Of a stretch of DNA of 64,000 nucleotides, positions 37,065-59,731 are shown piece by piece. The notes under the pieces were generated by a model, which worked only from the letters and a program-made list of their open reading frames with translations, was not told the DNA's origin and ran no database searches. Origin of the DNA: Tersicoccus phoenicis (GTDB lineage: Bacteria > Actinomycetota > Actinomycetes > Actinomycetales > Micrococcaceae); the NCBI RefSeq assembly GCF_001968835.1, contig NZ_MRDE01000072.1, positions 1 to 64,000 of the forward strand. The letters run 5' to 3'. A program made the position numbers and the translations under genes. Each line of letters opens with the position of its first letter. The stretch's first letter is position 1.

Positions 37065-37065
37065 G

Positions 37066-41259: not shown

Positions 41260-41286
41260 CTATCGGCGCAGATCGGGCCCGGGTAA
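41260..41286 (-). promoter_or_regulatory. sigma28-type promoter of the fliM operon
   Basis: Minus strand TTAC (41286-41283), exactly 15 nt, GCCGATAG (41267-41260). This matches the TAAA-N15-GCCGATA(T/A) form known for sigma28/SigD and the other three sites here. It lies in the 62-bp gap between motB and fliM and would drive fliM through csrA. Confidence 0.75.
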
Positions 41287-41313
41287 GGGCGGGGCGGGCG
41301 AGCAGGCCCGGGG

Positions 41314-42129
41314 TCAGCGTCCGGCGCCGCCGGATGCGCTCGCGGTGCCGCCGGCCGGCAACAGTTTCCGCACGGCCTCGGGCTGGTCGGACAGGAGCAC
41401 GATGTCGACGCGCCGGTTCTGCTCGTGTTCGGCCGGGGTGCGGCCGGGGGTGAGCGGGCGGGAGGACCCGAATCCGGTGGCGCGGATCACGGTCGCCGGG
41501 ACGCCGTCGCCCTCCACCAGGCGGCGCAACACGGTCGTGGCGCGCGCGGTGGAGAGCTCCCACACCGACGGGTAGGCGGTGAGCAGGTTGGCGGTGTGCC
41601 CCTCGACCGAGATCTGCTTGCCCGACGAGGTGAGAGTCGGAGCGATCGCGTCCAGGACCCGCTCCGCGTGCCGGTTGAGGTCGGCACTGTCCGGCTGGAA
41701 GAACGTCTGCGCCCCGACCAGGCGCACCGTCAGCCCGCGGGAGTCGATGCTCATCTGCACGTTCCCGGCGAGACCCGCCGCGTCGAGCCGCTGCTGCATC
41801 TGTTGCTTCAGGCCGGTCAACTTCTTCGTCTCCGCGACGGCGAGCGCCTGATTGCCGCTGAAGCCCTCCGCGTTCTTCCCGGCGTCCTCCGCGCGCACGA
41901 CGGTGCCCTCGGCCGTGTCGACGCTGGTGGAGACGGTGGTGCCGAAACCGGTGGCCAGGGAGTTGCGCAGCTTCTCGAACTTGGCCTGGTCGACGGTGGA
42001 CATCGCGTACAGCACGATGAACATGCACATGAGCACGGTGACCATGTCCATGTAGGACGCCATCCACCGCTCGTCGACGTGGTGCTCCGCCGTCTCCTGC
42101 GTCGGGCGCCGCCGACGTCGGGCGCTCAC
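41314..42129 (-). CDS. motB: flagellar motor stator protein MotB
   Basis: MotB anchors the stator to peptidoglycan and carries the proton-site Asp. The 271-residue protein has one N-terminal helix (SYMDMVTVLMCMFIVLYAMS, with the key Asp), a plug and linker, and an OmpA-type C domain (ISVEGHTANLLTAYPSVWELS, then RATGFGSSRPL and NRRVDIVLL). GTG 42129 overlaps the motA stop. Confidence 0.94.
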   Translation of the reverse strand: MSARRRRRPTQETAEHHVDERWMASYMDMVTVLMCMFIVLYAMSTVDQAKFEKLRNSLATGFGTTVSTSVDTAEGTVVRAEDAGKNAEGFSGNQALAVAETKKLTGLKQQMQQRLDAAGLAGNVQMSIDSRGLTVRLVGAQTFFQPDSADLNRHAERVLDAIAPTLTSSGKQISVEGHTANLLTAYPSVWELSTARATTVLRRLVEGDGVPATVIRATGFGSSRPLTPGRTPAEHEQNRRVDIVLLSDQPEAVRKLLPAGGTASASGGAGR

Positions 42130-42953
42130 GCCGCGTCCAGGCTGAGCGAGTCGGCGGCGCCCGACCCGGGCTGCGCCCCTGCCGACTTCGCCTTGCCGTT
42201 CTTGCGCTGGGTGACCGGCACCATGGCCTTGAGCCGCTCGGCGAGCAGCAGCGGCTGGGTGCCGGACTGGACGGCGAGGACGCCTTCCATCAGGAGATTC
42301 ATCCGCTCGCCCTCGAGTTCGGCCAGCCGGTTGAGGCGGGCGGAGAGCGGGAGCCAGATGAAGTTGGCCGAGAGCAGTCCCCACAGGGTGGCCACGAACG
42401 CGCTGGCGATCATCTCCCCGAGCTGCTCGGGTTTCGACAGGTTCTCCAGGACGTGGGTGAGGGAGATGACGGTGCCGACGATGCCGATGGTGGGGGCGTA
42501 GCCGCCGAGTGCGGAGAAGAACCTGGCGTCGGTCCGGTCGGACCGGGACCGGGTGGCGATTTCGTCCTCGAGCAGGACCCGCAGCTCCTCCGGGTCCGTT
42601 CCGTCGGCGATGTTCTGCAGCGCGCCCGCGAGGAACGGGTCCGTGGCGTCGGAGGCCTCGGACTCGAGCGCGAGCAGGCCGTCGGCGCGGGCCTTCTCGG
42701 CCAGGCCGATGATCGTGTCGATGCTCCGCTGCGGCGGTGTAGTGCGGCCGATCAGGGCCCGCGGGATCGCCGCGAACGCGTGCAGGCTGTCCTTGAGGGT
42801 GTTGCCGGCGAGCCCGACGGCGATGGTGGCACCGAACACGAGGATCATCGGGGCCGGCAGCAGCAAGGAGGTGATCGAGGCACCCTCGAGGGTGACCATC
42901 GCGAAGACGGAACCGAAGGCGAGCACCAGGCCGAGCAGGGTGGCGGGATCCAA
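42126..42953 (-). CDS. motA: flagellar motor stator protein MotA
   Basis: MotA forms the proton channel with MotB. The 275-residue protein has four hydrophobic helices: LLGLVLAFGSVFAMVTLEG, SLLLPAPMILVFGATIAVGL, and the pair YAPTIGIVGTVISLTHVLEN (conserved Pro) and IASAFVATLWGLLSANFIWL, with the cytoplasmic loop between. Confidence 0.94.
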   Translation of the reverse strand: MDPATLLGLVLAFGSVFAMVTLEGASITSLLLPAPMILVFGATIAVGLAGNTLKDSLHAFAAIPRALIGRTTPPQRSIDTIIGLAEKARADGLLALESEASDATDPFLAGALQNIADGTDPEELRVLLEDEIATRSRSDRTDARFFSALGGYAPTIGIVGTVISLTHVLENLSKPEQLGEMIASAFVATLWGLLSANFIWLPLSARLNRLAELEGERMNLLMEGVLAVQSGTQPLLLAERLKAMVPVTQRKNGKAKSAGAQPGSGAADSLSLDAA

Positions 42954-43011
42954 AGGTGCTCCTCGTGCTGGTGCTGTCGTGCGGTGTGCGGGCCGGTGCG
43001 GCGGTACCCGA

Positions 43012-43356
43012 TCAGGGTGCCGGATGCAGGACGTCGGGTACCACGCCGACGGGCAGGTCGGTGCCGGGGATCGCGGTGACGACGGCCACCGGGTCCGGGG
43101 TGCGGCCGGGGCCGGCCACCGAGTCCGGTACGAGGCTCAGCCGCGGGGCTTCCCCGTCGCTGAGCGCGCGGGCGGTCGCGACCACCCGGGCCCGGTAGCG
43201 GGCGATCAGGTCGATGACGGTGTCCATCGGCTCGGAGACCACGTACGTGGTGCCGTCGACCATGACCAGATACGTGTCGGGGCTGGCGTGGACCCGCTCG
43301 ATCAGATCGGGATTCACCGCGAAGCGGGTCCCGTTCAACCGGGTGACGACGATCAT
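43012..43356 (-). CDS. FlbD-type flagellar protein
   Basis: The 114-residue protein begins MIVVTRLNGTRFAVNPDLIE and continues VMVDGTTYVVSEPMDTVIDL, the FlbD/SwrD pattern. In Bacillus the SwrD homologue raises motor power; it sits between hook and motA genes as here. The ~45-residue C-terminal extension is not typical. ATG 43356 gives the conserved start. Confidence 0.85.
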   Translation of the reverse strand: MIVVTRLNGTRFAVNPDLIERVHASPDTYLVMVDGTTYVVSEPMDTVIDLIARYRARVVATARALSDGEAPRLSLVPDSVAGPGRTPDPVAVVTAIPGTDLPVGVVPDVLHPAP

Positions 43357-43496
43357 GGGTGCGGTTCCTGGTCCGTGGCTGGGGCGGCGTCCGGTCGGGC
43401 GCGTCACCGATCACTGTCGGCAGCCCGGGGCCCTGCGGTAAGGCCGACGCGCCGTCCTGCACGAAGCCGCCGACGCCACGACCGTCCCGCCGCTGG

Positions 43497-44672
43497 TCAG
43501 CGCTTGAGCTCGACGAGTTCCTGCAGCACCTGGTCCGACGTGGTGACGATCCGGGCGTTGGCCTGGAAGCCGCGCTGCGCGACGATCAGGTTGGTGAACT
43601 GCTGGGAAAGGTCGACGTTGGACATCTCCAGCTGGCCGCCGGAGAGGCTGCCGAAACCACCGGAGCCGGCGGTGCCGAGTTGCGGCGCCCCGGAGTTGGC
43701 GGTCGGCTGGTAGGCGGTGCCACCGACCTTCTCCAGGCCCGCGGGGTTGGTGAAGCGGGCGAGCGCGACCTGGCCGATGACGTGTTTGCCGCCGTTGCTG
43801 AACGATCCGACGAGCGTGCCGTCCGCACCGAGGCTGAAGGACTGCAGGGTGCCGGCCGCCGATCCGTCGACGGCGCTGCCGGTCACGGTGTTCACCCCGG
43901 CGTAGCCGGTCAGTTCGGTCATGTCGACGGTGACCCCGCCCACGGTCAGCGGGCCGGCCGGCTGCAGGCGTCCACCGGACAGGGTGAGGTTCGCCGAGCC
44001 GGTCCCCCCGTTGCCGTCCGCGCCGGCGATGCTCCAGCCGCCTGCGGTCCGGGTGAGGGTGAGGGTGAGCGTCCGGGCGGCACCGAGCGCGTCGAAGACG
44101 CGGACGTCCTTCGTCGTCGACTGCCCCACGGCCGTCTCCGCCGACAGGTTGCCCTCGAGCTTGGCCTGCGTCGTCGCGCTGGCCGGCATGGTCAGCGTCC
44201 GCGGGACCGTCATCGCGGTGGGCTGGGCCCCGGTGATGACGTTGCCGTTGGCGTCGGCGGTCCAGCCCTGCAGGATCGAGCCGTCGGGGCTGACCAACCG
44301 TCCCATGCCGTCGAAGTCGAAAGCACCGGCGCGGGTGTAGGTGGTGGCACCGGCCTTGTCGGTGACGAAGAATCCGTCGCCGGAGATCATCATGTCCGTC
44401 GCCCGGCCGGTGGACTGGGCGGAGCCCGGCGTGAAGTCGGTGGTGACGGCGGCGACCTTCACGCCGAGGCCCACCTGGGCGGGGTTGGTGCCCCCGGTCT
44501 CGGCCTGCGGTCCGCCGGCGGCCTGGGTCAGCTGGGACAGGGTGTCCTGGAACTGGGTGGTGGATGCCTTGAACCCGGTGGAGTTGGCGTTGGCGATGTT
44601 GTTGCCGGTGACGTCCAGCATCGTCTGGTGCGCGCGCAGGCCGGAGATGCCGGAGTAGAGGGAGCGGAGCAT
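43497..44672 (-). CDS. flgE: flagellar hook protein FlgE
   Basis: FlgE forms the hook. The 391-residue protein has the N-terminal flagellar rod signature SLYSGISGLRAHQ and GNNIANANSTGFKAS, a beta-rich middle, and C-terminal ELVELK-type coiled segment preceded by FTNLIVAQRGFQANARIV. No FlgF or FlgG homologue is present in the window, so FlgE with FlgB and FlgC are the only rod/hook proteins here. The 140-nt gap downstream holds no gene. Confidence 0.93.
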   Translation of the reverse strand: MLRSLYSGISGLRAHQTMLDVTGNNIANANSTGFKASTTQFQDTLSQLTQAAGGPQAETGGTNPAQVGLGVKVAAVTTDFTPGSAQSTGRATDMMISGDGFFVTDKAGATTYTRAGAFDFDGMGRLVSPDGSILQGWTADANGNVITGAQPTAMTVPRTLTMPASATTQAKLEGNLSAETAVGQSTTKDVRVFDALGAARTLTLTLTRTAGGWSIAGADGNGGTGSANLTLSGGRLQPAGPLTVGGVTVDMTELTGYAGVNTVTGSAVDGSAAGTLQSFSLGADGTLVGSFSNGGKHVIGQVALARFTNPAGLEKVGGTAYQPTANSGAPQLGTAGSGGFGSLSGGQLEMSNVDLSQQFTNLIVAQRGFQANARIVTTSDQVLQELVELKR

Positions 44673-44785
44673 GGTGGCGCCTTTCGTGCGGAGGGACCGG
44701 CCGTGGCGGCTGGTCGCCGTGGGTGGTGAGGTGACGGGTGGAGTGCGGGTCGGGCGTGGCGGGTACGGGGCGAGCGGGATGCGGT

Positions 44786-45223
44786 TCAGCGCCCGACGCC
44801 GAGCACGTCGGCGTAGCGGACGCGGGTGCCGCCGATGGTCAATGTGGGGTCGGCACCCTTCTGGGTGTCGGAGCCGGCGTAGGTGACGCCGTCCACGATG
44901 CCGGTGGTCGTGGTGCCGTCGGCGGCACGGTAGGACACGGACGCGCCCACCAGTGCGGCGGACGCGGCGCGGACCTGGGTGTCCCGGGCGGTGGTGGTGT
45001 CCTCGGCCAGTTGGGTGAGCTTCTCCATCATCGACAACTGGGTGGTCTGGTTGATCATCTGACCGGTGTCCATGGGGGAGCTCGGGTCCTGGTTCTTCAG
45101 CTGGGTCACGAGCAAGGACATGAAGACCTCCGAGCCCATGGTCTGCACCGGGGTGCGCGGCGTCGCTGTTGTAGTGGTGGCGCCGGTGGCGCCGCCGGTG
45201 CCGGTGACGGAGTCGATCGGCAT
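44786..45223 (-). CDS. flgD: flagellar hook cap protein FlgD
   Basis: FlgD caps the growing hook. The 145-residue protein is short but keeps the N-terminal block MGSEVFMSLLVTQLKNQDPS, MDTGQMINQTTQLSMMEKLTQL and a small C-terminal beta domain (GASVSYRAADGTTTTGIVDGV). It sits between fliK and flgE, the usual place. Confidence 0.92.
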   Translation of the reverse strand: MPIDSVTGTGGATGATTTTATPRTPVQTMGSEVFMSLLVTQLKNQDPSSPMDTGQMINQTTQLSMMEKLTQLAEDTTTARDTQVRAASAALVGASVSYRAADGTTTTGIVDGVTYAGSDTQKGADPTLTIGGTRVRYADVLGVGR

Positions 45224-45283
45224 GGTGCTCCTTGCTCTGCGGTCGGGGACCGATGGTGGGTGGATGGTTGGTGGTGGTCTCGG

Positions 45284-46819
45284 TCAGGCCAGAACGTCCA
45301 GGCGGCCTCGGGCTCGGCCCGTCAGCGGCGTCCCGGTCGGCGTGGGCTCGGTGGCCGCTGCGGCCCGGCCGGTCCCGCCGGCCCGGCCGCTGTCGTCGTC
45401 GGGGACGTCCGGACGGCTGCCCCAGCCGTCCTGCGGCGCTGACCGGTCGGACAGGTCCAGGTCGGCGGTCAGCCCGGTCTCCGCCAGGGTGCGCCGGAGA
45501 TCCGCGAGTGCGGACCGGACGGCGTCGCGCCCGGCATCCGTCGGGGCGAACAACTCGATCCGCACCGTGCCGCCCTCGATCCGGGCCCGGACGGTGACGG
45601 GCCCCAGATCGTCGGGGTGCACGGCGACGGTCAGTTCGTGTCGTCCCTCCCCCGCGGTCCGCAAGGCCCCGAGGGCACGCCCGAGTTGGGCGTACAACAG
45701 CGGATCGCCCGACGGCAGCGGTGCGGGGGTGGACGGCGCCGTGCCGCTGCCGGCGACCGCTGATCCGATGACCGGGGCACCGATGACCGGGGCACCGATG
45801 ACGGGGACGGCGGTAGCCGACGGCCCGGCCGATGCAGACTCGCCGGTCCCGGCGACCGGACGGGCTCCGGCATCGGGCGCCGCCGGCACGGCCGACGCCG
45901 ACGCGCCGGGCGCCGTCACCGGGGCCCCGACACCCGCCGGACCGGCAGTCACCGCGGGGGCACCCGGGGCGACGCTCGTCGCCGGGCCGGTGGACCAGTT
46001 CACCGGCCGAGCGGGACCGCCGGGGGTCGTGCTGTCGGACGCTCCATCGGCGAGCACCGGCGCAGCGCCGGCGCGCGCCGGGTCCGTGCTCGCCACCGGA
46101 GGGCGGTCACCGCCCGTCGTGACCCGTCCCGCCGCGTCACCGCCGGTGGTGGAGCGGGCGCTCGGAGGCGTCGTCACCGGCACGGCAACTCCGGCCGGCG
46201 TCGGCTCCACCGCAGTGCCGCCGGTGGGACGAGCCGACGACGAACCGGGAGCGAGTGAGGGCACCGGTGCACCCGCGAGCGCTGCATCGGCCTGCGGCAC
46301 GGTCTGGCCCCGGCTCGTGCTGCCGACCGGCGGAGTCGCGCCCCCCGTCCCGGGTACCACCGCGATCCCGGGCAGCGCACCGGCGGGGTCGCCCACCGTG
46401 CCCGGGGCGATGCCCGCGACCGTGTCGGTCGACACGGCCGCGACGGTGTCGACCGGCTGGCCGCCGTCGCTGGCCACCTCGGCGCGGTCGGCCGCGGCGC
46501 CCGGTCCGGTGGCGAGCCCGGCCGGCGTCATCGTCGCGGGGACCGTGACCGGCAGCGACCGGAGGGGACCGCGCGGGAACGCCCCGGGGTCGGCCGAACG
46601 CGGCGCGCCGGACAGCCGGACGCCGGCCGCGGCGACCGGAGCCGCGTCGGGCGCGCCGCCGAGCACGTCGTGCAGCCGGGCGGCGAATCGCCGGCCGGAG
46701 GTCGCCTCGCCCGCCGCGCCGGACCGGCCATCGGTCGTGCCGGTGGCGGAGCCGGGCGTGGCGTCGGTCGCCGTCGGTGGGAGCTTCGGCGTGCTCGGTC
46801 TCGTCGTGGGAACGCTCAT
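45284..46819 (-). CDS. fliK: flagellar hook-length control protein FliK
   Basis: FliK measures the hook and triggers the FlhB switch. The 511-residue protein is mostly a disordered Ala/Pro/Thr/Gly-rich ruler; repeats such as PVIGAPVIGAPVIG near 365 are visible. The C-terminal ~110 residues are the Flg_hook domain (HELTVAVHPDDLGPVTVRAR, then IELFAPTDAGRDAVRSAL). ATG 46819 overlaps the upstream stop (ATGA). Confidence 0.87.
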   Translation of the reverse strand: MSVPTTRPSTPKLPPTATDATPGSATGTTDGRSGAAGEATSGRRFAARLHDVLGGAPDAAPVAAAGVRLSGAPRSADPGAFPRGPLRSLPVTVPATMTPAGLATGPGAAADRAEVASDGGQPVDTVAAVSTDTVAGIAPGTVGDPAGALPGIAVVPGTGGATPPVGSTSRGQTVPQADAALAGAPVPSLAPGSSSARPTGGTAVEPTPAGVAVPVTTPPSARSTTGGDAAGRVTTGGDRPPVASTDPARAGAAPVLADGASDSTTPGGPARPVNWSTGPATSVAPGAPAVTAGPAGVGAPVTAPGASASAVPAAPDAGARPVAGTGESASAGPSATAVPVIGAPVIGAPVIGSAVAGSGTAPSTPAPLPSGDPLLYAQLGRALGALRTAGEGRHELTVAVHPDDLGPVTVRARIEGGTVRIELFAPTDAGRDAVRSALADLRRTLAETGLTADLDLSDRSAPQDGWGSRPDVPDDDSGRAGGTGRAAAATEPTPTGTPLTGRARGRLDVLA

Positions 46820-48024
46820 GCTGGTGCCACCACGCTCAGATCGCGGGCCAGCTGCCGGGCCTGCCCCTCCCACTTGGCGTAGGCGTCCGGGAAAGCGGAG
46901 ACCTGGACACGTTGTGCGGCCACGGTCAACGGCAGCTGCTGCCAGCCCGGAATGGTCTGCAGCCGGTCGAGGAACATGTCGGTGGACCGGGTCGGGCTCA
47001 TGGCGTCGGAGACGGTGCCCCACGAGAACATCGAGCCGTTGACCTGCTGCTGGAACAGGCCCACGGAGAAGCCGTCCACCCCGCGCGCCGACTGGTCCGG
47101 CGTCAGCGCCTGCGAACCGGGCACCTTCGGGTTCCAGTACATCCGCAGGTTGGACTCCTGCATGGCGGTGGCGAGTGCGACCTCGGCCGCGCGCTGGGGC
47201 AGCCCCCGCTCGCGCACCCGGTTGACGATCTGCTGGGCGTACTGCTTCTGGTCGACGGTCAGCGGCAGCGACGTCGCCCCCACGGTGACCGGTGCGGCCG
47301 CGGCGGCGACCCCGACGGTGACCCCCGCCGGCGTCGTGCCCGTCAGCGCCGTGCCCGTCGGGCCGGTGATCGCACCGGCGGGAACGTCCGGCGCCCCCGG
47401 CACGATGCGGCGGATCGCCGTCAGGTTGCTGTACTGCTCCCAGGCGTCCCGCACCTGGACGGTCTTGCCGGGCACGGGAGCGTCGATGGCCTTCCCGTCG
47501 CCGAGGTAGAGGGCGATGTGGTCGCCGCCGAAACTGATCAGCAGGTCGCCCGGCTTCGCGTCGGCCAGGGAGGCCACCGGTGTGCCCTGTGTCATCTGGT
47601 CGCGGACCAGCCGGGGCAGGTCGATGCCCACGTCCTTGAACACGCGTTGGACGAAACTCGAGCAGTCCATGCCGACCGCCGGGTCCGTCCCGCCCCACAC
47701 GTAGGGGACGCCCACGTACTTCTTCGCGGCGCCGACGACGTCGGCGCCGGTCACCCCGCCGGCCGTGGATCCGAGCGCGGCGGCGACGGACGTGCCGGTG
47801 GCACCGCCCGCTGTGGCCAGGGCCGCGCCGGCGGACAGGCCGGCGCTGGTCGCGACGGCACGGCCGAGTTCGGTCGCGAATGCCGGTGAGCCGTCCGTGG
47901 CCGCGCGGGCACCGGTGCTCGACCCGGCCGTACCCGCCGCGACGGCGGTGGTGCGCTGCGGCGTGAGCGCGGCGATGGTGGCGTGGATCTGCGCCACCCG
48001 GCCGAGGGTCTCGGTCATGCTCAT
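46816..48024 (-). CDS. NlpC/P60 plus lysozyme-like wall hydrolase in the flagellar operon
   Basis: The 402-residue protein joins two wall-degrading domains. Residues ~95-210 are NlpC/P60 with catalytic Cys in VGMDCSSFVQRVF and His in GDHIALYLGDGK. After a Ala/Val/Gly linker, residues ~255-395 form a lysozyme-like domain with a candidate acid Glu in TAMQESNLRMYWNP and GLFQQQVNGSMF. There is no obvious signal peptide, so it may leave through the flagellar export gate. Between fliJ and fliK it probably replaces FlgJ in opening peptidoglycan for the rod. That role is inference from domains and position. Confidence 0.8.
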   Translation of the reverse strand: MSMTETLGRVAQIHATIAALTPQRTTAVAAGTAGSSTGARAATDGSPAFATELGRAVATSAGLSAGAALATAGGATGTSVAAALGSTAGGVTGADVVGAAKKYVGVPYVWGGTDPAVGMDCSSFVQRVFKDVGIDLPRLVRDQMTQGTPVASLADAKPGDLLISFGGDHIALYLGDGKAIDAPVPGKTVQVRDAWEQYSNLTAIRRIVPGAPDVPAGAITGPTGTALTGTTPAGVTVGVAAAAAPVTVGATSLPLTVDQKQYAQQIVNRVRERGLPQRAAEVALATAMQESNLRMYWNPKVPGSQALTPDQSARGVDGFSVGLFQQQVNGSMFSWGTVSDAMSPTRSTDMFLDRLQTIPGWQQLPLTVAAQRVQVSAFPDAYAKWEGQARQLARDLSVVAPA

Positions 48025-48446
48025 GGCGCCTCCGCCCGTCCGTGCCCGGTGACGGCGAGTTCGTCCAGGGCGGCTTGCTCGGCGGCCAACTCCTGTTCCA
48101 CCGTCCGCGCGTCGTGCCGTTCCTCGAGCTTCTCCAGGCCCGCGGTCGCGATCCGCGCCGCGGTCCACGCGTCCCGCAGGGCCCGCTCCTCGTCCGCGGC
48201 GGTCGCGACGGCGGCGTCCAGTTCGGCCAGCAGGGCGATCGTCGAGGACCGCGCCGCCGCGATCGCGCGCAGGCTCACCATGCTGTCCGGGGCGGCGGAA
48301 CCGGCGGCGGCGTGGCCGTACATGCCGTCCCGCCGCGCCCGGACGGCACGGTGCTCGGCCGCTGCGGCGCCCCAGCGCGCCGCGGCGGTGTCCTCGTTCA
48401 GCCGGCGCAGGCGGAGCAGCCCGGCCAACCGGAACGGGGCGGTCAT
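48021..48446 (-). CDS. fliJ: flagellar export chaperone FliJ
   Basis: FliJ is the coiled-coil stalk of the export ATPase and an escort for chaperones. The 141-residue protein is nearly all Ala/Glu/Arg-rich helix (FRLAGLLRLRRLNEDTAAAR, later EERHDARTVEQELAAEQAAL). It directly follows fliI with an ATGA overlap. Sequence signal is weak; length, coiled-coil pattern and position decide. Confidence 0.78.
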   Translation of the reverse strand: MTAPFRLAGLLRLRRLNEDTAAARWGAAAAEHRAVRARRDGMYGHAAAGSAAPDSMVSLRAIAAARSSTIALLAELDAAVATAADEERALRDAWTAARIATAGLEKLEERHDARTVEQELAAEQAALDELAVTGHGRAEAP

Positions 48447-49864: not shown

Positions 49865-50517
49865 CCGACCCCCTCCTCGCGGACGGCATCTTCCAGAGCC
49901 GTGCGGACCCGGGCCACGGCAGTGCCCAGCCGGGCGTCCAGTGTGCCGGCCGGGTAGTCGGCGAGCGCGTCGCCGGGGGCGACCAGGGGGTCGGCGATCA
50001 GCGCCGCCCCGTCGGGCAGCAGGTCGGCGGCGAGCCCGGATTCTCTCAGCAGCGCGACGTCGGCGGGGTTGAGCCGTACCCGGACCATGTCGTCGGCGTC
50101 GTCCGCCGCGACGGCCCGGGTCAGAGCGGCGCGGGCGGCGGCGAACGGGTCCCGGCGGGTGTGGTCGCCCAGCAGGGCCTCGGCCAGGTCGACGACCGCG
50201 TCGGCGAACCGGGCGTCCCAGTCGGCCAGCACCGGTGCGGTGCGGGCGCGCAGCTGCCCGGCGGCCGCCTGCAGGGCGGCGGCCGCGGCGTCGAGCCGGG
50301 CCCGGGCAGCGGCCGCCTGGGCGCGCTGCTCCGCCTCGTGCCGTTCCTGGCTCAACCGGGCCGCGACCTCGGCGCTGCGCAGACCGGCGGCGTACCCGGC
50401 GGCGTGGCCACGGGTGAAGCCCTCGGTCCGGGTCCGGTCGGCGCCCGGCGCCGCAACGCGCGGGAAGACCACCGGGACGGGCCGGGACCGGCGGGCGGCC
50501 TGCGTGTCAGTCGACAT
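49861..50517 (-). CDS. fliH: flagellar assembly protein FliH
   Basis: FliH is the regulator and stator-like partner of FliI. The 218-residue protein has FTRGHAAGYAAGLRSAEVAA (Gly-xxx-Gly repeats typical of FliH), an Ala/Arg/Gln-rich coiled coil and a C domain (VRLNPADVALLRESG). The ATG lies inside the fliG 3' end (11-nt overlap). Confidence 0.87.
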   Translation of the reverse strand: MSTDTQAARRSRPVPVVFPRVAAPGADRTRTEGFTRGHAAGYAAGLRSAEVAARLSQERHEAEQRAQAAAARARLDAAAAALQAAAGQLRARTAPVLADWDARFADAVVDLAEALLGDHTRRDPFAAARAALTRAVAADDADDMVRVRLNPADVALLRESGLAADLLPDGAALIADPLVAPGDALADYPAGTLDARLGTAVARVRTALEDAVREEGVG

Positions 50518-51526: not shown

Positions 51527-53172
51527 ACCCGGGCCCGCTCATCCATCATGCCGCGCAGGTAGTCGGCGGCGACCCGGGGGTCCGTGCCGCCCAGGGCGTC
51601 GACCTCGTTGCGGCGCAGGTCGCCGCTCGCGTCGATCGGCGTGATGGTCTCCAGCGGGGTCGCCAGGGGGATCGCCGAGGTCATCGGGGCGGCGCCGATC
51701 GCCTCCACCGCGGGCCCCCCCACCGCCGCGGGCGTGTCGACCATCTCCTGCAGATGCAGCGGCGAACCACCCAGCTCCAGGGGCTGACGGGCGGTGCGGC
51801 GGGACCGCAACCAGAGGACGCCGACGATGACCAACAGCAGGAACAGGCCCCCGACACCGAGGAAGATGTTGGTCCACATCTGCTGGTCGGCGCGGGCGGC
51901 GGCCTCGGCCTGCGCGGCCTTGAGGGCGGCGTCTGCCTGCTGCGCGGCGCTCGTACTGAACGGCACCACCTGCAGGGACAGGGTGTCACCCCGCTTGACG
52001 TCGATGCCCGCTGCAGCGGAGACGAGCTGGTTGAGGGAGGCGACGTTCAGCCCACCGGCGGCGGTCTGGTTCACGGCCACCGAGACGAACTGCCGTTTCA
52101 GGGCGCCGGCCGGGACGGTACGCTGCTCGGTCTGCTTGCTGACCGCGTTGTTCCGGGTCGTCGAGCTGGACGTGTAGTTGCCGTTGCCCCCCTTCGGGTT
52201 CGCCTGACCCGGCGACTGCGCACCGGGCACGGCGATGTTGTCCGGGCCGAGCACCCCGGCGGACCCGGCCGCGCCCGTGCCCTGGTAGGCCTCGGTGGTC
52301 GTGGTCTCGCTGAGCGGCTCGGTGCCCTTGCTGGTGGTGAACGACTCGCTCGTCTGCTCGGCGGACTGGGTGTCGATCTCGGGGGTGACGGCGACGGTCG
52401 CGTTGCCGGGCCCGACCACCCGGTCGAGCACCGCTTGCACGGAGGCCTGGGTCTGCTTCTGGTAATCGGCGGCCTGGGCCCCGGTGGTGCCCGTGGTGCC
52501 GGTGCCGACGGCGGAGAGCACGGCGCCCGCGCTGTCGACCACGGACACGTTCTTCGGGGTGAGCTTCTCCACGGAGGCGCTGGTGAGGTGAACGATCGCC
52601 TGCACCTGCTCGGTGCTCAGCTGCTGACCCGGGCGGGCCTTGATGAACACGGAAGCGGTGGGGTCGGCGGCCTGGGCGGTGAACACCGTCTTGTCCGGGA
52701 TGGCCAGCTGCACGGAGGCGGTCTCGACCCCGTCGAGGGAGCCGATGGTGGCGGCCAGCTCACCTTCGATGGCGCGTTTGTACGTCACCTTCTGCTGGAA
52801 CTCCGACGAGGTGACGCCCATCTTGTCGAGCAGGGAGTACCCGGTGGCGGGTGCGGCCGGCAAGCCCGCGGCGGCGGCCTTGAGCCGCTCGTCGTACACC
52901 TTGTCCTCCGGGACCAGCACCGTGGAGCCGCCGTCGGCGAGTTGGTAGGGCACGTTGTCCTTGCGCAGTTGCTCCACGACGGCGCTCGCGTCGGCGTCCT
53001 TCATCCCCGAGAACAGGGGGCTGTAGGTGGGCCGGGTCAGCCAGCTGGTCAGCGCGACACCGCCCAGCACGAGCACGGCGATGCCGATCAGGGCGATGGT
53101 GCGCTGGGCGACGCTGAACCGGCCCACGGTCGCCGAGAGACGGCGGGCGAGACCACTCAGGGCGGGAGGCAT
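51523..53172 (-). CDS. fliF: flagellar MS-ring protein FliF
   Basis: FliF forms the MS ring in the membrane. The 549-residue protein has an N-terminal helix (IALIGIAVLVLGGVALTSWL), YscJ/RBM domains (YSPLFSGMKDADASAVVEQL, KAAAAGLPAAPATGYSLLDK), a Gly/Ser/Asn-rich variable loop near 330 and a C-terminal helix (NIFLGVGGLFLLLVIVGVLW). The C-tail that binds FliG is present. Confidence 0.95.
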   Translation of the reverse strand: MPPALSGLARRLSATVGRFSVAQRTIALIGIAVLVLGGVALTSWLTRPTYSPLFSGMKDADASAVVEQLRKDNVPYQLADGGSTVLVPEDKVYDERLKAAAAGLPAAPATGYSLLDKMGVTSSEFQQKVTYKRAIEGELAATIGSLDGVETASVQLAIPDKTVFTAQAADPTASVFIKARPGQQLSTEQVQAIVHLTSASVEKLTPKNVSVVDSAGAVLSAVGTGTTGTTGAQAADYQKQTQASVQAVLDRVVGPGNATVAVTPEIDTQSAEQTSESFTTSKGTEPLSETTTTEAYQGTGAAGSAGVLGPDNIAVPGAQSPGQANPKGGNGNYTSSSTTRNNAVSKQTEQRTVPAGALKRQFVSVAVNQTAAGGLNVASLNQLVSAAAGIDVKRGDTLSLQVVPFSTSAAQQADAALKAAQAEAAARADQQMWTNIFLGVGGLFLLLVIVGVLWLRSRRTARQPLELGGSPLHLQEMVDTPAAVGGPAVEAIGAAPMTSAIPLATPLETITPIDASGDLRRNEVDALGGTDPRVAADYLRGMMDERARV

Positions 53173-53501
53173 CAGGCCTGCATCCTCATCATCTCGTTGA
53201 AGCCGCTGACGGCCTGGTTCCGCACCGCGGCGACGAGTTCCATGGTGGTCTGGGCCCGGCCGGCGGCGAGGGTGGCCCGGTGGATGTCGGTCAGGTCACC
53301 GGTGACGGCCTGCAGGGCGAGCGTGTTCGACGTCGTCTGCTGCTGCTGCAGGCCACCGAGCACACCGGACAAAGTGCCGGCGAACGTGCCGTCGGAGGGG
53401 CCGGAGCCACCGGCCGACCCCGCCCCGGCGGCGCGCCCCACGTACCCGGTGCCGGTGACGCCGCTGACTCCGTTCACGGCGCCCAGCGCCAGCTCGCTCA
53501 T
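53172..53501 (-). CDS. fliE: flagellar hook-basal body protein FliE
   Basis: FliE joins the MS ring to the rod. The 109-residue protein has a Gly-rich N half and the conserved C half (VTGDLTDIHRATLAAGRAQT, ELVAAVRNQAVSGFNEMMRM). The stop shares a base with the fliF ATG (TGATG). Confidence 0.92.
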   Translation of the reverse strand: MSELALGAVNGVSGVTGTGYVGRAAGAGSAGGSGPSDGTFAGTLSGVLGGLQQQQTTSNTLALQAVTGDLTDIHRATLAAGRAQTTMELVAAVRNQAVSGFNEMMRMQA

Positions 53502-53893
53502 CCGTTCTTCCCGATCTGCAGGGCGGCCTGGTAGATCTGTTTGGCCTGGTCCACGACCTGGGCGTTGGCCTGGTAGCCGCGCTGAGCCATGATCAGGGCC
53601 GTCATCTGCTCGTTGAGGTCGATGTCCGGGTAGCGCACGTTGCCGTTCGCGTCCGCGAGCGGGTGGTCCGGCTGGTTCACGATGCGCCCGTTCGCATCGC
53701 CCATCGGCGTGCTGCGGACGTAGACGCCGCTCGTGCCCGCTCCGGCCTGCGCCTCGATGTACCGTGCGCGGAACGCCTGGTCGCTGGTGCGGGTGACGGT
53801 GTTGACGTTGGCGATGTTGTCGGAGATCGCGTCCAGCCATTTCCGGTGCACGGTCAGGGCGGTGCCGGCGATACCGATCGCGTCGAACGTCAC
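53498..53893 (-). CDS. flgC: flagellar rod protein FlgC
   Basis: FlgC is a proximal rod subunit. The 131-residue protein has the rod signature LTVHRKWLDAISDNIANVNT and the C-terminal block MTALIMAQRGYQANAQVV. GTG 53893 overlaps the flgB stop (GTGA). Confidence 0.93.
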   Translation of the reverse strand: MTFDAIGIAGTALTVHRKWLDAISDNIANVNTVTRTSDQAFRARYIEAQAGAGTSGVYVRSTPMGDANGRIVNQPDHPLADANGNVRYPDIDLNEQMTALIMAQRGYQANAQVVDQAKQIYQAALQIGKNG

Positions 53894-54234
53894 GACGTGG
53901 TCCTCAGGGCGGCGCGCAGCGCCGCGGACTGGTTGCCGATCGCGGAGCTGGCGAACTGGTAGCGCAGCACCGTGTCGACGTTGGCGAGAGTCTCGGTCTC
54001 CAGGTTGACGTTGTTGCCGTTCAACTGGGTGGGTTCGACGGACAGCGACGTCGTCGGCGTCGTCCGCCCGCTGCCGGTGCGCACGGAGGCGGTGAGAGCC
54101 TCCTCGAAGGCCACCCGCTGGGCCCGGTAGCCCGGGGTGTTGACGTTGGCGATGTTGTCCGCTATGGCACGCTGCCGCGCCGCCAGCCCGTCGAGGGCGC
54201 TGGTGAGCGCGGTGTTCGTCACGGATTCGAGCAC
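53890..54234 (-). CDS. flgB: flagellar rod protein FlgB
   Basis: FlgB is the first rod subunit on FliE. The 114-residue protein has ALDGLAARQRAIADNIANVN and TPGYRAQRVAFEEAL, then NNVNLETETLANVDTVLRYQ. GTG 54234 is chosen for the family N terminus; the frame is open to 54309 but the sigma28 site there would cut it. First gene of the main basal-body operon. Confidence 0.93.
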   Translation of the reverse strand: MLESVTNTALTSALDGLAARQRAIADNIANVNTPGYRAQRVAFEEALTASVRTGSGRTTPTTSLSVEPTQLNGNNVNLETETLANVDTVLRYQFASSAIGNQSAALRAALRTTS

Positions 54235-54308
54235 GGCTGTCCTGCCTGTCCTGCAGCAATGACGGCCGATCCGTGGCCGGGTGATGAGCGATCCGTGCTC
54301 ACCGGCCA

Positions 54309-54335
54309 CTATCGGCGGGTGCCGCCGAGGCGTTA
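54309..54335 (-). promoter_or_regulatory. sigma28-type promoter of the flgB operon
   Basis: Minus strand TAAC (54335-54332), 15 nt, GCCGATAG (54316-54309), about 70 nt upstream of the flgB GTG. It would transcribe flgB through motB. Confidence 0.8.
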
Positions 54336-54434
54336 GCCGTGGTCAGCGGGCAGATCGGACGTCGGTCCCGCGGACCCGGCCGACCGCCCGGGTCCGGTCA
54401 CCGGGTTCGGTCGCCGGCGAGTCCGGCCCCGGGC

Positions 54435-54893
54435 TCAGCCGACCACGTCGACGTAGGCCGGACCGAGCCGGCCCGTGCCGGATCGGACGGCGTCCACCGT
54501 GGCCAGATGCCGTGCCGTGGCACCCTTGGCCGCCTCCAGCAGGGCCGCCGTGGCACGCTGTCGCGTGATCAGGCGCTGGATCCGGCCGCGCAGGTACTCG
54601 GGCACCGGGCCCAGTCCCGGCGGCGGGACCCATCGGGTGCGCCGCAGCGCGAGACCGGCCGCGTCGGCACCGGCAGCCACCGGTGCCGACGCGTCGGTGG
54701 GTACCGGTCCCCCGACCGGCACCGCCCGTGAGACCGCCGGCGACCCAGGTCCCCCCAATCCGGCGGCTGACGGATCCGCGAGCAGTCGGTCCGCCTCGTC
54801 GAGCGCGTGCTCGAGCGCGTCCAGGACCGCGAGCCAGCGGACGATGTTGTGTTCCTCGAACGAGACGAACGGGTCGGGGGCCGGCTCAGCCAA
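54435..54893 (-). CDS. unknown protein in the fliT position
   Basis: The 152-residue protein follows fliS, where a FliT-type FliD chaperone often lies. The N part is helical (FEEHNIVRWLAVLDALEHAL, DEADRLLADP); a Pro/Ala linker follows, then a basic helix (YLRGRIQRLITRQRATAALL). I do not recognise a family. TTG 54893 has GGAGG eight bases upstream and overlaps the fliS stop; the frame is open to 54968 without support. FliT-like function is a guess from order. Confidence 0.6.
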   Translation of the reverse strand: MAEPAPDPFVSFEEHNIVRWLAVLDALEHALDEADRLLADPSAAGLGGPGSPAVSRAVPVGGPVPTDASAPVAAGADAAGLALRRTRWVPPPGLGPVPEYLRGRIQRLITRQRATAALLEAAKGATARHLATVDAVRSGTGRLGPAYVDVVG

Positions 54894-55317
54894 CGCTCCA
54901 GCCTCCGAGCGCCGGAGACGGCGTCGCGGGGGCGGGAACGGCGTCGGCGGCGGCGTGCCAGCTCTCATGCAGCGGGGCCAGCAGGGCGATGGCCTCCCGG
55001 GTACGCTCGACGTCGCGGCGCACGTTCGCGGTGATCAGGGCGGTGTGCACGTACGTGTAGATGCCGCGCAGGCTCTCGGCCCCGTCCCACACGTCCGTGC
55101 GGAGGCTGGCGGACAGCTCGGTGATGATGTCTTGGGCGTGCACGAGGTCGACGGCCGCGGCCGGCCAGCGTTGCTCCACCTGGGCCGCCTCGGCGCGGCG
55201 CAGGTCGAGCAGCAGCCGGTCGTACAGCATGGTCAGCAGGCGTGCGGGGCTGGCGGAGAGGACGGCGTCACGGGTGTACTGGGCGCGTTGCCGGGCCTGC
55301 ATCAGGGTGGTGCTCAT
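54886..55317 (-). CDS. fliS: flagellin chaperone FliS
   Basis: FliS binds the flagellin C terminus and prevents early polymerisation. The 143-residue helical protein has QYTRDAVLSASPARLLTMLY, DRLLLDLRRAE, and LVHAQDIITELSASLRTDVW, the family blocks. It follows fliD by five bases. Confidence 0.93.
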   Translation of the reverse strand: MSTTLMQARQRAQYTRDAVLSASPARLLTMLYDRLLLDLRRAEAAQVEQRWPAAAVDLVHAQDIITELSASLRTDVWDGAESLRGIYTYVHTALITANVRRDVERTREAIALLAPLHESWHAAADAVPAPATPSPALGGWSVG

Positions 55318-55322
55318 CGACG

Positions 55323-56723
55323 TCACTGTCCTTGGCTGGAGTTGTAGGTCGGGAGGCTGGCGATCTGGCTGGTGAGCCACGTCTGCTGGCTCTTGAGGAC
55401 CCCGAGGGAGCCCTCCATGGCGTCGAACAAGGACTTCAGGGAATCCCGCCGGGCGGACAGGCGCAGGTCCCAGTCCCCGATCCGGTTCGCCAGGTCCGAG
55501 ACTTCCGCCTGCCGGCCCTGGATCAGACTGGACAGGGCACCGGTCGCCGGGGCCGAGGCGTCCGTGGCGGCGGCAGTCACCCGGACGGCGATGTCGGCGA
55601 GCGCCCGTTGCGTTCCGGCCGGGTCGGCAGCCAGGGCGGCTCGCAGCTTCCCCTCCTGGAACGTCAACGTCCCGTCCCGGTTCAGCTCGATGCCCCACCG
55701 GGCCGGTGAGTCGCCGTTCACCGGCCGGTACGCGGCGGCGGCGATCCGGTCGTTGACCATCGTCACCGTCGAGTTGGCAGTGAACACGCCCGCGTTCACA
55801 CTGGTCGCGCCGCTGGTGGTGCTGGTGGTAATGCTGCGCTGGGCCGCGATGGAGGAGAGCACACCGTTCAGCGCATCCACCAGGGCGGACGCCCGACTGA
55901 TCACGCCCTCCTCGTCCAGGCCGACGGTGACCGTGACGGGGGCATCCGGTACGGTCGTCGCGGTCACGTCCACTCCGGGCAGCACACCGGTGAACGTGTT
56001 GGTGGCGGAGGTGAGCACCTGCTCCGCCGCGGTGCCGGCGTAGAGGCGCGCGGAGGCGTCCTGGGCCGCGGTCACGACGGCGGCCCCGGGTTCGGTCATC
56101 AGGTCGGTCGCGGTGCCGGCGTCCAGGTCGGCGGCGGTGCCCCGGTAGACGCTGAAGCCGCCGGCCGCCCCGGAGCCGGCCGCGGTGAACTGGATCCGGT
56201 ACTGCGCGGTGCCGTCCGCGGCGGTCCCCGCCGCGACGCGCACCGCCGTGACCGGGCCACCGGCCGCGTTGACCGCGTCGGCGACGTCCTGGACCGCGGT
56301 CGATGCGGGGGTGATCTCGGTACGCTTGCCGGTCGCGTCGACGAGGGTCAGCGCCACGACCGAACCGTCAGGGTTCGTCGGCCACGCGCTCATCACGCCG
56401 GTCACGGCGACCTGGGCCTGCGCGAGCCGGTCGACGGTCAGTGCGAAACTGCCGCCGGGAGCACCCTTGGCGGCGGTCGCCGTCACCGACGCGGCCGACG
56501 TGGTGGCCGCCAGCGCCGATGCGGCGGTCGGACCGCCGAGCGTGCGCCCGATGTCCGCCAGGCCCGCGACCTTCGCGTTCAGTTGCTGCAGCGCGGCGAT
56601 GAGGGTCTGCCCGCTCTGCCGGCGCGCCTGCATCTGCTGCTGCGGCAGCTGCTCCACCTTCATCAAGGAGTTGATCAGCGACGTCGTGTCCAGTCCGCTG
56701 GCAAGTCCGTCGATCGAGGCCAT
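55323..56723 (-). CDS. fliD: flagellar filament cap protein FliD
   Basis: FliD caps the filament and folds exported flagellin. The 466-residue protein starts SIDGLASGLDTTSLINSLMK, has a variable middle and the C-terminal FliD_C block (SRASALVDALNGVLSSIAAQ, ... LANRIGDWDLRLSARRDSL). Downstream of fliC and just before fliS. Confidence 0.93.
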   Translation of the reverse strand: MASIDGLASGLDTTSLINSLMKVEQLPQQQMQARRQSGQTLIAALQQLNAKVAGLADIGRTLGGPTAASALAATTSAASVTATAAKGAPGGSFALTVDRLAQAQVAVTGVMSAWPTNPDGSVVALTLVDATGKRTEITPASTAVQDVADAVNAAGGPVTAVRVAAGTAADGTAQYRIQFTAAGSGAAGGFSVYRGTAADLDAGTATDLMTEPGAAVVTAAQDASARLYAGTAAEQVLTSATNTFTGVLPGVDVTATTVPDAPVTVTVGLDEEGVISRASALVDALNGVLSSIAAQRSITTSTTSGATSVNAGVFTANSTVTMVNDRIAAAAYRPVNGDSPARWGIELNRDGTLTFQEGKLRAALAADPAGTQRALADIAVRVTAAATDASAPATGALSSLIQGRQAEVSDLANRIGDWDLRLSARRDSLKSLFDAMEGSLGVLKSQQTWLTSQIASLPTYNSSQGQ

Positions 56724-56783
56724 GGGTCCTCCGTAGCCGATGGGTTCTACCGGCCCCGGTCAGCGGGGTCGGCTCGCCCCGGC

Positions 56784-56825
56784 GACGGCGGCGGCCGGCG
56801 CACTGTCGTGCCGGCCGCCGCCGTC
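56784..56825 (-). terminator. fliC terminator
   Basis: A perfect 16-bp stem (56784-56799 with 56810-56825) lies about 40 nt after the fliC stop. It should separate abundant fliC mRNA from fliD and the genes beyond; some read-through may feed fliD, which has no sigma28 site of its own. Confidence 0.8.
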
Positions 56826-56862
56826 CCGGTCACCGGGTCCGCCCCGCGGGGCGGTCCGGTCA

Positions 56863-57735
56863 TCAGCCCAGGAGTTTGAGCACGCCCTGGCCGGACTGGT
56901 TCGCCTGCGCCAGCATCGCGGTACCGGCCTGCGCGATGATGGAGTCCTTGGTGTAGGTCACCATCTCCGCCGCCATGTCGGTGTCCGTGATGTGGGAGCG
57001 GGCCGCGGACAGGTTCTGCGCGGTCACGTTCAGCGAGTTGATCGCGTTCTGGAACCGGTTGGCCACGGCGCCCAGGGACGCACGCGCGGTGGACACGTCC
57101 CCGATCTTGGTGTCCACGGTCGCGATCGTGGTCAGCGCGGTGGCGGCGCTCGCGAAGCCGTCGGTCGTGACGATGGCCGTCTTCAGATCGGCCGCGAGAG
57201 TCTTGATGTCCGCACCGGTCAGCCCCCCGAGATCCACCGAGATCTGATCGGCGGAGGTCGACCCCGCGCCCACCTGGAAGGTGAGCTTGCCGTCACCGGC
57301 GGGGCCCGACGTGGCGCCCTGCAGCAGGTTGATGCCGTTGAAGTTGGTGTTGTCGGCGAGCCGGCCGAGCTCGTCGACCAGGCCCGTGACCTCGGTGGTG
57401 ATCGCGGCGCGGGACGCGGTGTTGTTCGAGTCGTTGCCGGCCTGAACCGCCAGGTCGCGGACGCGCTGCAGGATGGAGTTCACCTCGGTGAGGGCGCCTT
57501 CCGCGGTCTGCAGCACGTTCATGCCGTCCTGAGCGTTCCGGGCGGCGATGTTGTAGCCGTTGACCTGGGAGCGCAGGCCCTCGGAGATCGCCATGCCCGC
57601 GGCGTCGTCGGACGCGGTGTTGATGCGCAGGCCGCTGGAGAGCTTCGCCATCGACTTGGACATGTCCGTCTGCGTGCGGGACAGGTTCAGGTACGCGTTG
57701 CTCGCGGCCGTGTTGGTGTTGATGGTCATCGCCAT
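56863..57735 (-). CDS. fliC: flagellin FliC
   Basis: The filament subunit. The 290-residue protein has the conserved D0/D1 ends: MAMTINTNTAASNAYLNLSR and MAKLSSGLRINTASDDAAGM at the N terminus, and SAARSHITDTDMAAEMVTYT and AQANQSGQGVLKLLG at the C terminus. The central variable domain is short (~90 residues), as in compact flagellins. The leader (see separate entries) carries a sigma28-type promoter and CsrA-type sites. Confidence 0.97.
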   Translation of the reverse strand: MAMTINTNTAASNAYLNLSRTQTDMSKSMAKLSSGLRINTASDDAAGMAISEGLRSQVNGYNIAARNAQDGMNVLQTAEGALTEVNSILQRVRDLAVQAGNDSNNTASRAAITTEVTGLVDELGRLADNTNFNGINLLQGATSGPAGDGKLTFQVGAGSTSADQISVDLGGLTGADIKTLAADLKTAIVTTDGFASAATALTTIATVDTKIGDVSTARASLGAVANRFQNAINSLNVTAQNLSAARSHITDTDMAAEMVTYTKDSIIAQAGTAMLAQANQSGQGVLKLLG

Positions 57736-57740
57736 GACAG

Positions 57741-57792
57741 GTCATCCTCCGTGATTGTTGTTCGGGTACTGCCTGAGCCCGTCCGTGGGCTC
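57741..57792 (-). promoter_or_regulatory. fliC leader with two CsrA-type sites
   Basis: In the ~60-nt leader, GAGCCC-ACGGAC-GGGCTC (57792-57775) forms a six-pair hairpin with GGA in a six-base loop, the preferred CsrA form. A second GGA lies in the Shine-Dalgarno (ACGGAGGATG, 57752-57743). Two such sites match the hag leader of Bacillus, where CsrA blocks translation and FliW relieves it. Confidence 0.7.
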
Positions 57793-57802
57793 GCATCTGG
57801 AT

Positions 57803-57829
57803 CTATCGGCAGGCCCGGAGGGATCGTTA
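57803..57829 (-). promoter_or_regulatory. sigma28-type promoter of fliC
   Basis: Minus strand TAAC (57829-57826), 15 nt, GCCGATAG (57810-57803); start near 57796, about 60 nt before the ATG. Confidence 0.8.
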
Positions 57830-58082
57830 GGCACGGGACAAGAAGGATCTGACCAGGACAGACTGAGGCAAGGAGGATGCAGCCAGTGAAGTAGGCGAAG
57901 CCGACCCTGAACCATCAGCGTCGACGATGCATGCACCGGGTCCCTGCAGACAGAGGAGACAGGGAGCCAACTCATGCCGCCGAATGGGCCCGAGAGATCG
58001 TCGCGACCGGGGACGACGACGTCGGTCAGGGTCGCGAAGCGCCTCTCCGCTCGGGAACTGGCCGCCGTCGGTCAGGGCCGCC
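57830..58082. other. gap between the fliC promoter and the zeta toxin gene
   Basis: No supported gene, RNA or strong hairpin is seen here. A few short open frames exist but lack ribosome sites and recognisable sequence. Confidence 0.5.
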
Positions 58083-58655
58083 CTACCGCAGCAGTTCGGG
58101 AGGGGTCCACGTCGGCCACTGCGCCTCCCCCACCGCGACACCGTGCTCGAGGATAGCGGCAAGGCGGAACGGGTTCGCCGCTCTGCTGTTGTCGTAGAAC
58201 CGCGCCCGGTCCGCGATCAGCCGCGCCGCCGCGACGTGGGTCCAGAGCCGCGCATACCGCCCGCGGATCTTCGCCTCGCGAACGGCATGTCCGCCGTGTG
58301 CCGTGCGATAGTCGACACGCCGCACCGCCACCTCCTCGGGGACCATGATCACGTGCAGCGTCACGAGATACTCAAGGGCCGCGGCCTGCTCGACCAGGTC
58401 GACCTTGCTCGGGTGGCTGAACACGGTCTCCGTGATGAACGATGCCCCCACGGCCAGCAGCCGCGCACGCTGTTCCGCCGCCTCCCGCGACGCCTCGTAG
58501 GCGTGCTCGGACTCACTCCCGGGCCATCTCCTCGCCGCAATCGCAGCCGCGTTGATGAACGGAAGCACGAGGTTCGGCGCGAGGACGCGTTCGACGAAGG
58601 TCGTCTTCCCCGACCCGTTCGGACCGGCCAGCAGGTGCAGGACCGGCGAACTCAC
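58083..58655 (-). CDS. zeta-toxin family kinase
   Basis: The 190-residue protein has Walker A LLAGPNGSGKTTFVERVL and further zeta-family blocks: PFINAAAIAARRWPG, FITETVFSHPSKVDLV, LHVIMVPEEVAVRRV, KIRGRYARLW and ARFYDNSRAANPF. Zeta toxins phosphorylate UDP-activated sugars and halt wall synthesis. In relatives the segment reads N-A-D; here the Asp is Ala (INAAAIA), so activity may be reduced or different. It overlaps the antitoxin stop by ATGA. The pair sits between two flagellar operons. Confidence 0.8.
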   Translation of the reverse strand: MSSPVLHLLAGPNGSGKTTFVERVLAPNLVLPFINAAAIAARRWPGSESEHAYEASREAAEQRARLLAVGASFITETVFSHPSKVDLVEQAAALEYLVTLHVIMVPEEVAVRRVDYRTAHGGHAVREAKIRGRYARLWTHVAAARLIADRARFYDNSRAANPFRLAAILEHGVAVGEAQWPTWTPPELLR

Positions 58656-58993
58656 TCCCCGCCCCTGATGACGAGGTTGCCCTCCTCGTCACCCTCCGCC
58701 CACGGCTCGCCGGCCGCAGTCAACTCCTGCTCGAGATCCAACGAGGCGATGGCGCCGGCGATCCGCTCATTCCAGGCCGCCCGAACCATCGCCTGCTCAC
58801 GCCCGGCCAGCGCGTCGTACGAACCGTTGCCGGCAAGAACCCTGGCCACCACCGCTCCGCTGCCCGTCGCCTCCAATTCCCGCCCGATCCGCGCCCACCG
58901 ATTGATCCGCTCGGACGCGCTTCCGTCCTCGGCCCTGGCGGCCTCGTAGACGTCGTGGTCGATCCGGGTAGGGTGGGTCGGCATCGCAGGCAT
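58652..58993 (-). CDS. ParD-like antitoxin paired with the zeta-type toxin
   Basis: The 113-residue protein has a ribbon-helix-helix-like N terminus (IDHDVYEAARAEDGSASERI, NRWARIGRELEA) and an acidic C half (LDLEQELTAAGEPWAEGDEE). It precedes and overlaps the toxin, the usual antitoxin-first order. Naming rests on pairing and the ParD-like N terminus. Confidence 0.72.
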   Translation of the reverse strand: MPAMPTHPTRIDHDVYEAARAEDGSASERINRWARIGRELEATGSGAVVARVLAGNGSYDALAGREQAMVRAAWNERIAGAIASLDLEQELTAAGEPWAEGDEEGNLVIRGGE

Positions 58994-58999
58994 GGGCCT

Positions 59000-59005
59000 A
59001 TCGTA
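59000..59005 (-). promoter_or_regulatory. toxin-antitoxin promoter, probably leaderless
   Basis: Minus strand TACGAT ends six bases before the ATG at 58993, the same geometry as at cysS and tmk. Confidence 0.5.
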
Positions 59006-59118
59006 GCGTTCTGCTACACGCTTCGGTCGCGCCGAACGAGAACTGGTCCTTCCGGCGGGGAGAGGCGCAGTACGCCCAGTGACACCCGAAATGGACGTCC
59101 CGGGCCAGGTGCGTGGCC

Positions 59119-59145
59119 TTACCGGCGGGCGTCGACTGCCAATAG
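59119..59145 (+). promoter_or_regulatory. sigma28-type promoter of flgN-flgK-flgL-fliW
   Basis: TTAC (59119-59122), 15 nt, GCCAATAG (59138-59145), one base from the -10 of the other three sites. The start would be near 59151, about 80 nt upstream of flgN. Confidence 0.72.
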
Positions 59146-59715: not shown

Positions 59716-59731
59716 GCTCCGGGAAGGCGTC

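Follow-up and report, generated by a model that had tools for sequence, protein, structure and literature searches.

Tandem CsrA-type hairpins in the flgB leader and a proposed CsrA-FliW ordering of flagellar assembly without FlgM in Tersicoccus phoenicis

Introduction

The flagellar gene cluster of Tersicoccus phoenicis (Micrococcaceae) raises the question of how flagellar assembly may be kept in order when the operons appear to share a single promoter type. We analyzed a 64,000-nucleotide (nt) stretch of its genome (contig NZ_MRDE01000072.1, positions 1 to 64,000), hereafter called the window, with attention to its sigma28-type promoters and to a tandem pair of CsrA-type RNA hairpins with which the flgB mRNA is predicted to begin. 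An initial annotation of the window had placed near-identical sigma28-type sites upstream of fliM, flgB, fliC and flgN, and had suggested that basal-body and export genes use the promoter type of the filament gene, with the early/late order absent or set after transcription. Flagellated Actinobacteria lack FlgM, and since 2008 at the latest it has been asked how they bring assembly into order (PMC2587704). The anatomy described here gives a specific answer, a candidate replacement for the FlgM checkpoint that can be tested with CsrA as the only protein and with two short RNAs. If this is true, a flagellar program keeps its order on a single promoter type by labeling messages, not promoters. 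Loci of relatives are designated below by L-numbers, genomes by G-numbers (G000 for T. phoenicis itself) and families by f-numbers.

Results

Promoters of the flagellar operons

All four sites of the initial annotation were found by pattern search at their stated positions, with the form CTWAC-N15-GCCRATAG and a spacer of exactly 15 nt in each, and FliM, FlgB and FlgN downstream of them were identified by profile. The sequence CTAAC-N15-GCCGATAG precedes both the flgB operon (flgB to flgE; site 54335-54309 within 54309..54336, minus strand) and fliC (site 57829-57803 within 57803..57830, minus strand), CTTAC-N15-GCCAATAG precedes the flgN operon (site 59119-59145 within 59118..59145, plus strand), and the remaining site precedes the fliM/export operon (site 41286-41260 within 41260..41287, minus strand). 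A fifth, likewise conserved site that was absent from the initial annotation, CTTAC-N16-GCCGACAG, lies 5′ of flbD-motA-motB (43414..43441, minus strand) and has a 16-nt spacer. The sites agree with the sigma28 (FliA) consensus of Helmann, namely -35 TAAA and -10 GCCGATAA (as quoted in PMC8325347) with a spacer of about 15 nt, in a lineage variant with CTWAC at -35 and a final G.

Such sites are rare. The four matches to CTWAC-N15-GCCRATAG in the window compare with 0.00 in 100 dinucleotide-preserving shuffles. A genome-wide scan, which the initial annotation had proposed as a check, returned five matches to TWAC-N15-GCCRATAG in the whole 3.21-Mb genome and none to the reversed control pattern, and tolerating one mismatch in CTWAC-N15-GCCRATAR added only two places. 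The sole N15 match away from the flagellar genes (L001:1501-1527 on contig C44, 139 nt 5′ of an open reading frame (ORF) of 691 amino acids) may be a chance match. Conservation was assessed in 79 loci of Micrococcaceae and Microbacteriaceae by counting the mismatches of the best-matching site within 260 nt 5′ of each gene. A site with at most one mismatch was present upstream of flgB in 77/77 and of fliM in 30/32 cases, and one with at most two mismatches upstream of every fliC (63/63), flgN (55/55) and flbD (45/45), while reversed controls in the same regions had two to six mismatches. An extra sigma28-like site also occurs outside the flagellar cluster in two Tersicoccus genomes (L047:5032-5058 and L048:5316-5342), 5′ of a gene whose product presumably resembles DUF3145.

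The upstream regions of fliA (30875..31723, minus strand; a FliA/WhiG family sigma factor by profile match) contained, with one exception among 26 loci, no sigma28-type site above control level, and fliA is apparently the only flagellar gene outside its own regulon. The genome encodes a single FliA-type sigma factor, the second match to the same search probably being RpoD. With the sites of five operons conserved in relatives and this single sigma factor, the proposed sharing of a promoter type by basal-body, export and filament genes is strengthened, and one sigma factor appears to turn on all flagellar operons together; we infer that FliA acts at these sites.

The anti-sigma factor of a FlgM-gated hierarchy was not found: none of the 297 genomes examined in the order, that of T. 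phoenicis included, gave a FlgM match above the cut-off, while the controls Escherichia coli, Bacillus subtilis and Thermotoga maritima were positive. This result is in agreement with Zhu et al. (PMC10746217). The absence of an early/late transcriptional order is itself not new, since it is known from the relative Actinoplanes missouriensis, whose flagellar genes are transcribed simultaneously and without hierarchy according to a review (Jang 2016, cited in PMC8306008). With no FlgM to part early from late genes, the order would be set on the mRNAs by CsrA and FliW.

Leaders of flgB and fliC

The tandem element of flgB (54264..54300, minus strand), assigned by conservation, covariation and shuffles, consists of hairpin 1, GAGC-ACGGAUC-GCUC (54300-54286), and hairpin 2, GGCC-ACGGAUC-GGCC (54278-54264). 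Its general form in flgB leaders is GAGC-ANGGANN-GCUC followed by GGCC-ANGGANN-GGCC, with ANGGA in both positions in 76 of 78 leaders. The first loop has the form A(C/U/G)GGA and the second the form A(C/U)GGA, and variation is free only at N and at the last two loop bases. Hairpin 1 starts 8 nt past the -10 element in 66/76 leaders (standard deviation 0.58 nt), close to where the message is expected to start. The spacing between hairpin 2 and the gene region has a standard deviation of 5.8 nt, ten times that spread; the element is therefore anchored to the predicted mRNA 5′ end and not to the gene. A tandem ANGGA hairpin pair was found once in the window and in none of 20 shuffles, and the pattern occurs only once in the genome. 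Across the order, covariation of the element was 0.112 against 0.078 when shuffled (0/500 as high), with compensatory core changes such as GGCC/GGCC to CGCC/GGCG. No Rfam family scored above its gathering score for the element. As in CsrA-bound leaders, ANGGA stands in hairpin loops and the two sites are tens of nt apart; as in flhDC, the sites are placed where the message is predicted to begin and are clear of the Shine-Dalgarno sequence. We consider it very probable that CsrA binds these hairpins.

Several observations weigh against this assignment. The core stems are invariant in the two closest families, where covariation is silent, and the free fold of the flgB leader of the window lacks hairpin 1. 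Among the genomes sampled, three from family f14 and one from f2 lack the pair. Two Arthrobacter loci (L087:7268-7314 and L088:7261-7308) keep both stems with loops that lack GGA (AGCCGUU and GCCGAUC/GCCGACC, with GCCG in both loops), and their fliC loop is still AAGGA. Loss of csrA as the cause is ruled out, because csrA is present in both. A further idea, sequestration of the flgB start codon with release by CsrA, was not supported across 69 leaders. In the minimum-energy fold of the window GAGCACGG pairs with the flgB start, and accessibility of the start region rose only from 0.33 to 0.38 across the leaders with the hairpins held. This increase did not exceed the one obtained when the 5′ part was shuffled, and in the window itself accessibility decreased.

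The fliC leader reads promoter, hairpin GAGCCC-ACGGAC-GGGCUC, UCACGGAGGA, start. The hairpin (57775..57792, minus strand) resembles the BS1 site of CsrA, and ACGGAGG, which overlaps the Shine-Dalgarno sequence (57746..57752, minus strand), resembles BS2 and is seen in relatives. In a set of 47 different leaders, changes on both sides occurred in seven of the nine stem pairs, and covariation of the hairpin was 0.359 against a shuffle mean of 0.158 (0/500 as high) and at most 0.086 for slid structures. In nearly all relatives the loop retains ANGGA, and the Shine-Dalgarno region retains ACGGAGG or AUGGAGG. CsrA, FliW and flagellin are encoded in one genome, and the flagellin leader has GGA both in a hairpin and over the Shine-Dalgarno sequence, as in the CsrA-FliW flagellin checkpoint, and repression of fliC by CsrA is highly likely. 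Together with the absence of FlgM, the hairpins in the two leaders lend support, at the level of sequence, to the suggestion that the early/late order is absent or post-transcriptional.

Distribution of the flgB element

Of 396 genomes of the order, a covariance model search (E ≤ 1.5e-5) detected the element in 70, and CsrA is present in 68 of these. flgB lies within 200 nt 3′ of the element in 67 of the 86 match loci examined, the remainder being extra copies, contig ends and weak matches. A second covariance model found the element 5′ of flgB in ten further genomes, which belong to five families of the class but not of the order. Two ANGGA loops on quite different stems are present in families that the model did not recover, for example UGGCC-AUGGAU-GGCCA with GCCGCC-AAGGACG-GGUGGC. 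One locus (L123), labeled Vibrio cholerae strain 35D, was left out, as it is evidently a mislabeled or contaminated actinobacterial contig (its FliG is 61% identical to that of Tersicoccus). CsrA was found in 102, FliG in 104 and both in 101 of the 396 genomes, and by this near-complete overlap CsrA is here in effect a flagellar protein.

Extra copies stand 5′ of other genes. One genome (G314) has three, each after a sigma28-like promoter, 5′ of flgB, fliH and fliP. In five Frigoribacterium-labeled loci, fliH (named by position and resemblance) is preceded by a second copy that has a promoter of its own, and this fliH starts with ML(D/E)SV as flgB does; this suggests that the promoter and leader of flgB were duplicated as a cassette. 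A different genus has a copy 5′ of an NlpC/P60 hydrolase gene, which we infer to encode a wall-cutting rod protein. Insofar as they can be named, the genes that bear the element all appear to be early or basal-body genes, and the element marks a class of messages, not a single gene.

Organization of the gene cluster

Five units can be read off the promoter sites, four on the minus strand and flgN-flgK-flgL-fliW on the opposite strand. The basal-body unit begins with flgB (53890..54234, GTG start at about 54234; profile match) and continues with flgC-fliF-fliG-fliH-fliI-fliK-flgD-flgE (43497..53840), assigned in part from homology with relatives and from the order of the genes. It is followed by flbD, motA and motB (41314..43356, profile matches) and by fliM-fliN-fliO-fliP-fliQ-fliR-flhB-flhA-flhF-like-csrA (32585..41251), in which fliQ is assigned by position only and csrA is the last gene (32830-32585). 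The fliC unit comprises fliC, fliD, fliS and a small ORF (54435..57735), and the plus-strand unit (59233..62399) ends in fliW (62031-62399); both were assigned by profile and relatives. The GTG start of fliM (41251, minus strand) lies about 8 nt past the -10 element, with the same spacing in the genomes of most relatives. From this spacing the fliM/export operon is probably leaderless, and such a start would evade leader-based control. FliG of Tersicoccus sp. Bi-70 and of T. solisilvae is 92% identical to that of the window.

A paralogue of FlgN is encoded at 31870-32472 (plus strand), divergent from fliA, the true flgN being that at 59233. In each of the three Tersicoccus genomes the paralogue gene adjoins fliA and csrA. 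The paralogue might act on FliA, and an anti-sigma role was considered. The gap between fliC and flgN contains a gene for a Zeta-toxin-like AAA protein and a small partner gene (58083-58993, minus strand) and is 26-54 kb wide in other Tersicoccus genomes. In several other genera fliA is located there, whereas it is beside csrA in Tersicoccus. The T. phoenicis genome has a full flagellar set, but a search for the methyl-accepting chemotaxis protein domain (PF00015) gave no match; the genome thus encodes flagella without such receptors.

Discussion

In the mechanism that we propose, fliA would be expressed first, from another type of promoter, and FliA (sigma28) would then transcribe as one tier the units of flgB (basal body and hook), flbD-mot, fliM (switch and export, with csrA as its last gene), fliC (filament) and flgN (junction proteins, with fliW as its last gene). 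The order of assembly would be imposed on the mRNAs through the CsrA-FliW switch. Free CsrA would bridge the hairpin and the Shine-Dalgarno sequence of the fliC leader and block flagellin translation, while CsrA on both 5′-end hairpins of the flgB message would most likely protect or activate it, as on flhDC of E. coli. With the hook complete and flagellin exported, FliW would be freed and would capture CsrA, so that fliC would be translated and the early message released. We lean slightly toward one-tier transcription by FliA with sorting of mRNAs by CsrA and FliW as the whole explanation. The two-way form of the switch is proposed because the flgB sites, like those of flhDC, lie at the 5′ end and away from the Shine-Dalgarno sequence; the chances of a positive effect of CsrA on flgB seem evenly balanced. 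A wider reading, which we hold tentatively and put a little below even, is that the promoter-anchored hairpin pair is a class-wide element of Actinomycetia that labels early messages, forms with the fliC leader a two-way CsrA-FliW switch in place of FlgM, and is a portable label, its copies at fliH, fliP and an NlpC/P60 gene having come along with the promoter.

Other explanations fit parts of these data. The flgB leader could be a decoy for CsrA, flagellin translation waiting until enough basal-body mRNA has titrated the protein. Two sites 22 nt apart would suit one CsrA dimer, they are away from the Shine-Dalgarno sequence, and several early transcripts within one genome carry copies. We nevertheless regard a decoy as unlikely, since FliW is already an antagonist of CsrA, one dimer per mRNA makes a poor capacity, and a sponge would not need a position fixed to the 5′ end. 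Equally unlikely, in our judgment, is that CsrA represses both fliC and flgB and is a general brake on flagellar synthesis, not a sorter; CsrA is more often a repressor (PMC7652899) and the flgB leader is short, but the flgB sites, unlike those of fliC, are clear of the Shine-Dalgarno sequence and start codon, at a variable distance from the gene.

Somewhat more doubtful still is that the flgB hairpins are not for CsrA and are a DNA operator 3′ of the transcription start, a 5′ stabilizer or the site of another protein. The core stems are nearly invariant palindromes and are kept without GGA in L087 and L088. A palindromic operator, however, would not need the asymmetric ANGGA in both spacers, other families present ANGGA loops on different stems, and compensatory changes are seen. 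Finally, the four promoter-like sites could be due to chance or be weak, another regulator driving the basal-body and export genes. Their support consists of sequence matches, and fliA itself is under other control; given the genome-wide rarity of the sites and their conservation at a fixed position in up to 77 other loci, this explanation is very improbable.

The proposed sorting by CsrA and FliW has counterparts in known systems. As in Tersicoccus, the hag flagellin leader of B. subtilis has an ANGGA hairpin site and a second site over the Shine-Dalgarno sequence, and the partners CsrA and FliW are both encoded in the cluster. B. subtilis differs in having FlgM and in its basal-body genes being mainly sigmaA-driven. 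We know of no paired element on a basal-body message in B. subtilis and of no leader element for the flagellar cluster of A. missouriensis. At hag, CsrA blocks translation at the Shine-Dalgarno sequence and FliW relieves the block (PMC7652899). The motility island of K. radiotolerans likewise has FliA and csrA and no FlgM; its 2008 account notes a match to hag BS2 in the flagellin leader, could not discern the regulation and is not known to report a flgB leader element (PMC2587704). According to citing papers, A. missouriensis also transcribes flagellar genes of all tiers together and has FliA-family sigma factors (Jang 2016; Hashiguchi 2020), but three of them along with other developmental regulators, against one FliA in Tersicoccus. 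Like the flgB element, the flhDC leader of E. coli presents a pair of CsrA sites where an early flagellar mRNA begins, clear of the Shine-Dalgarno sequence, and CsrA protects that message from RNase E (PMC7652899). There the message encodes a master regulator of transcription, whereas the element of Tersicoccus is located on a structural basal-body operon and in relatives has further copies at fliH, fliP and an NlpC/P60 gene.

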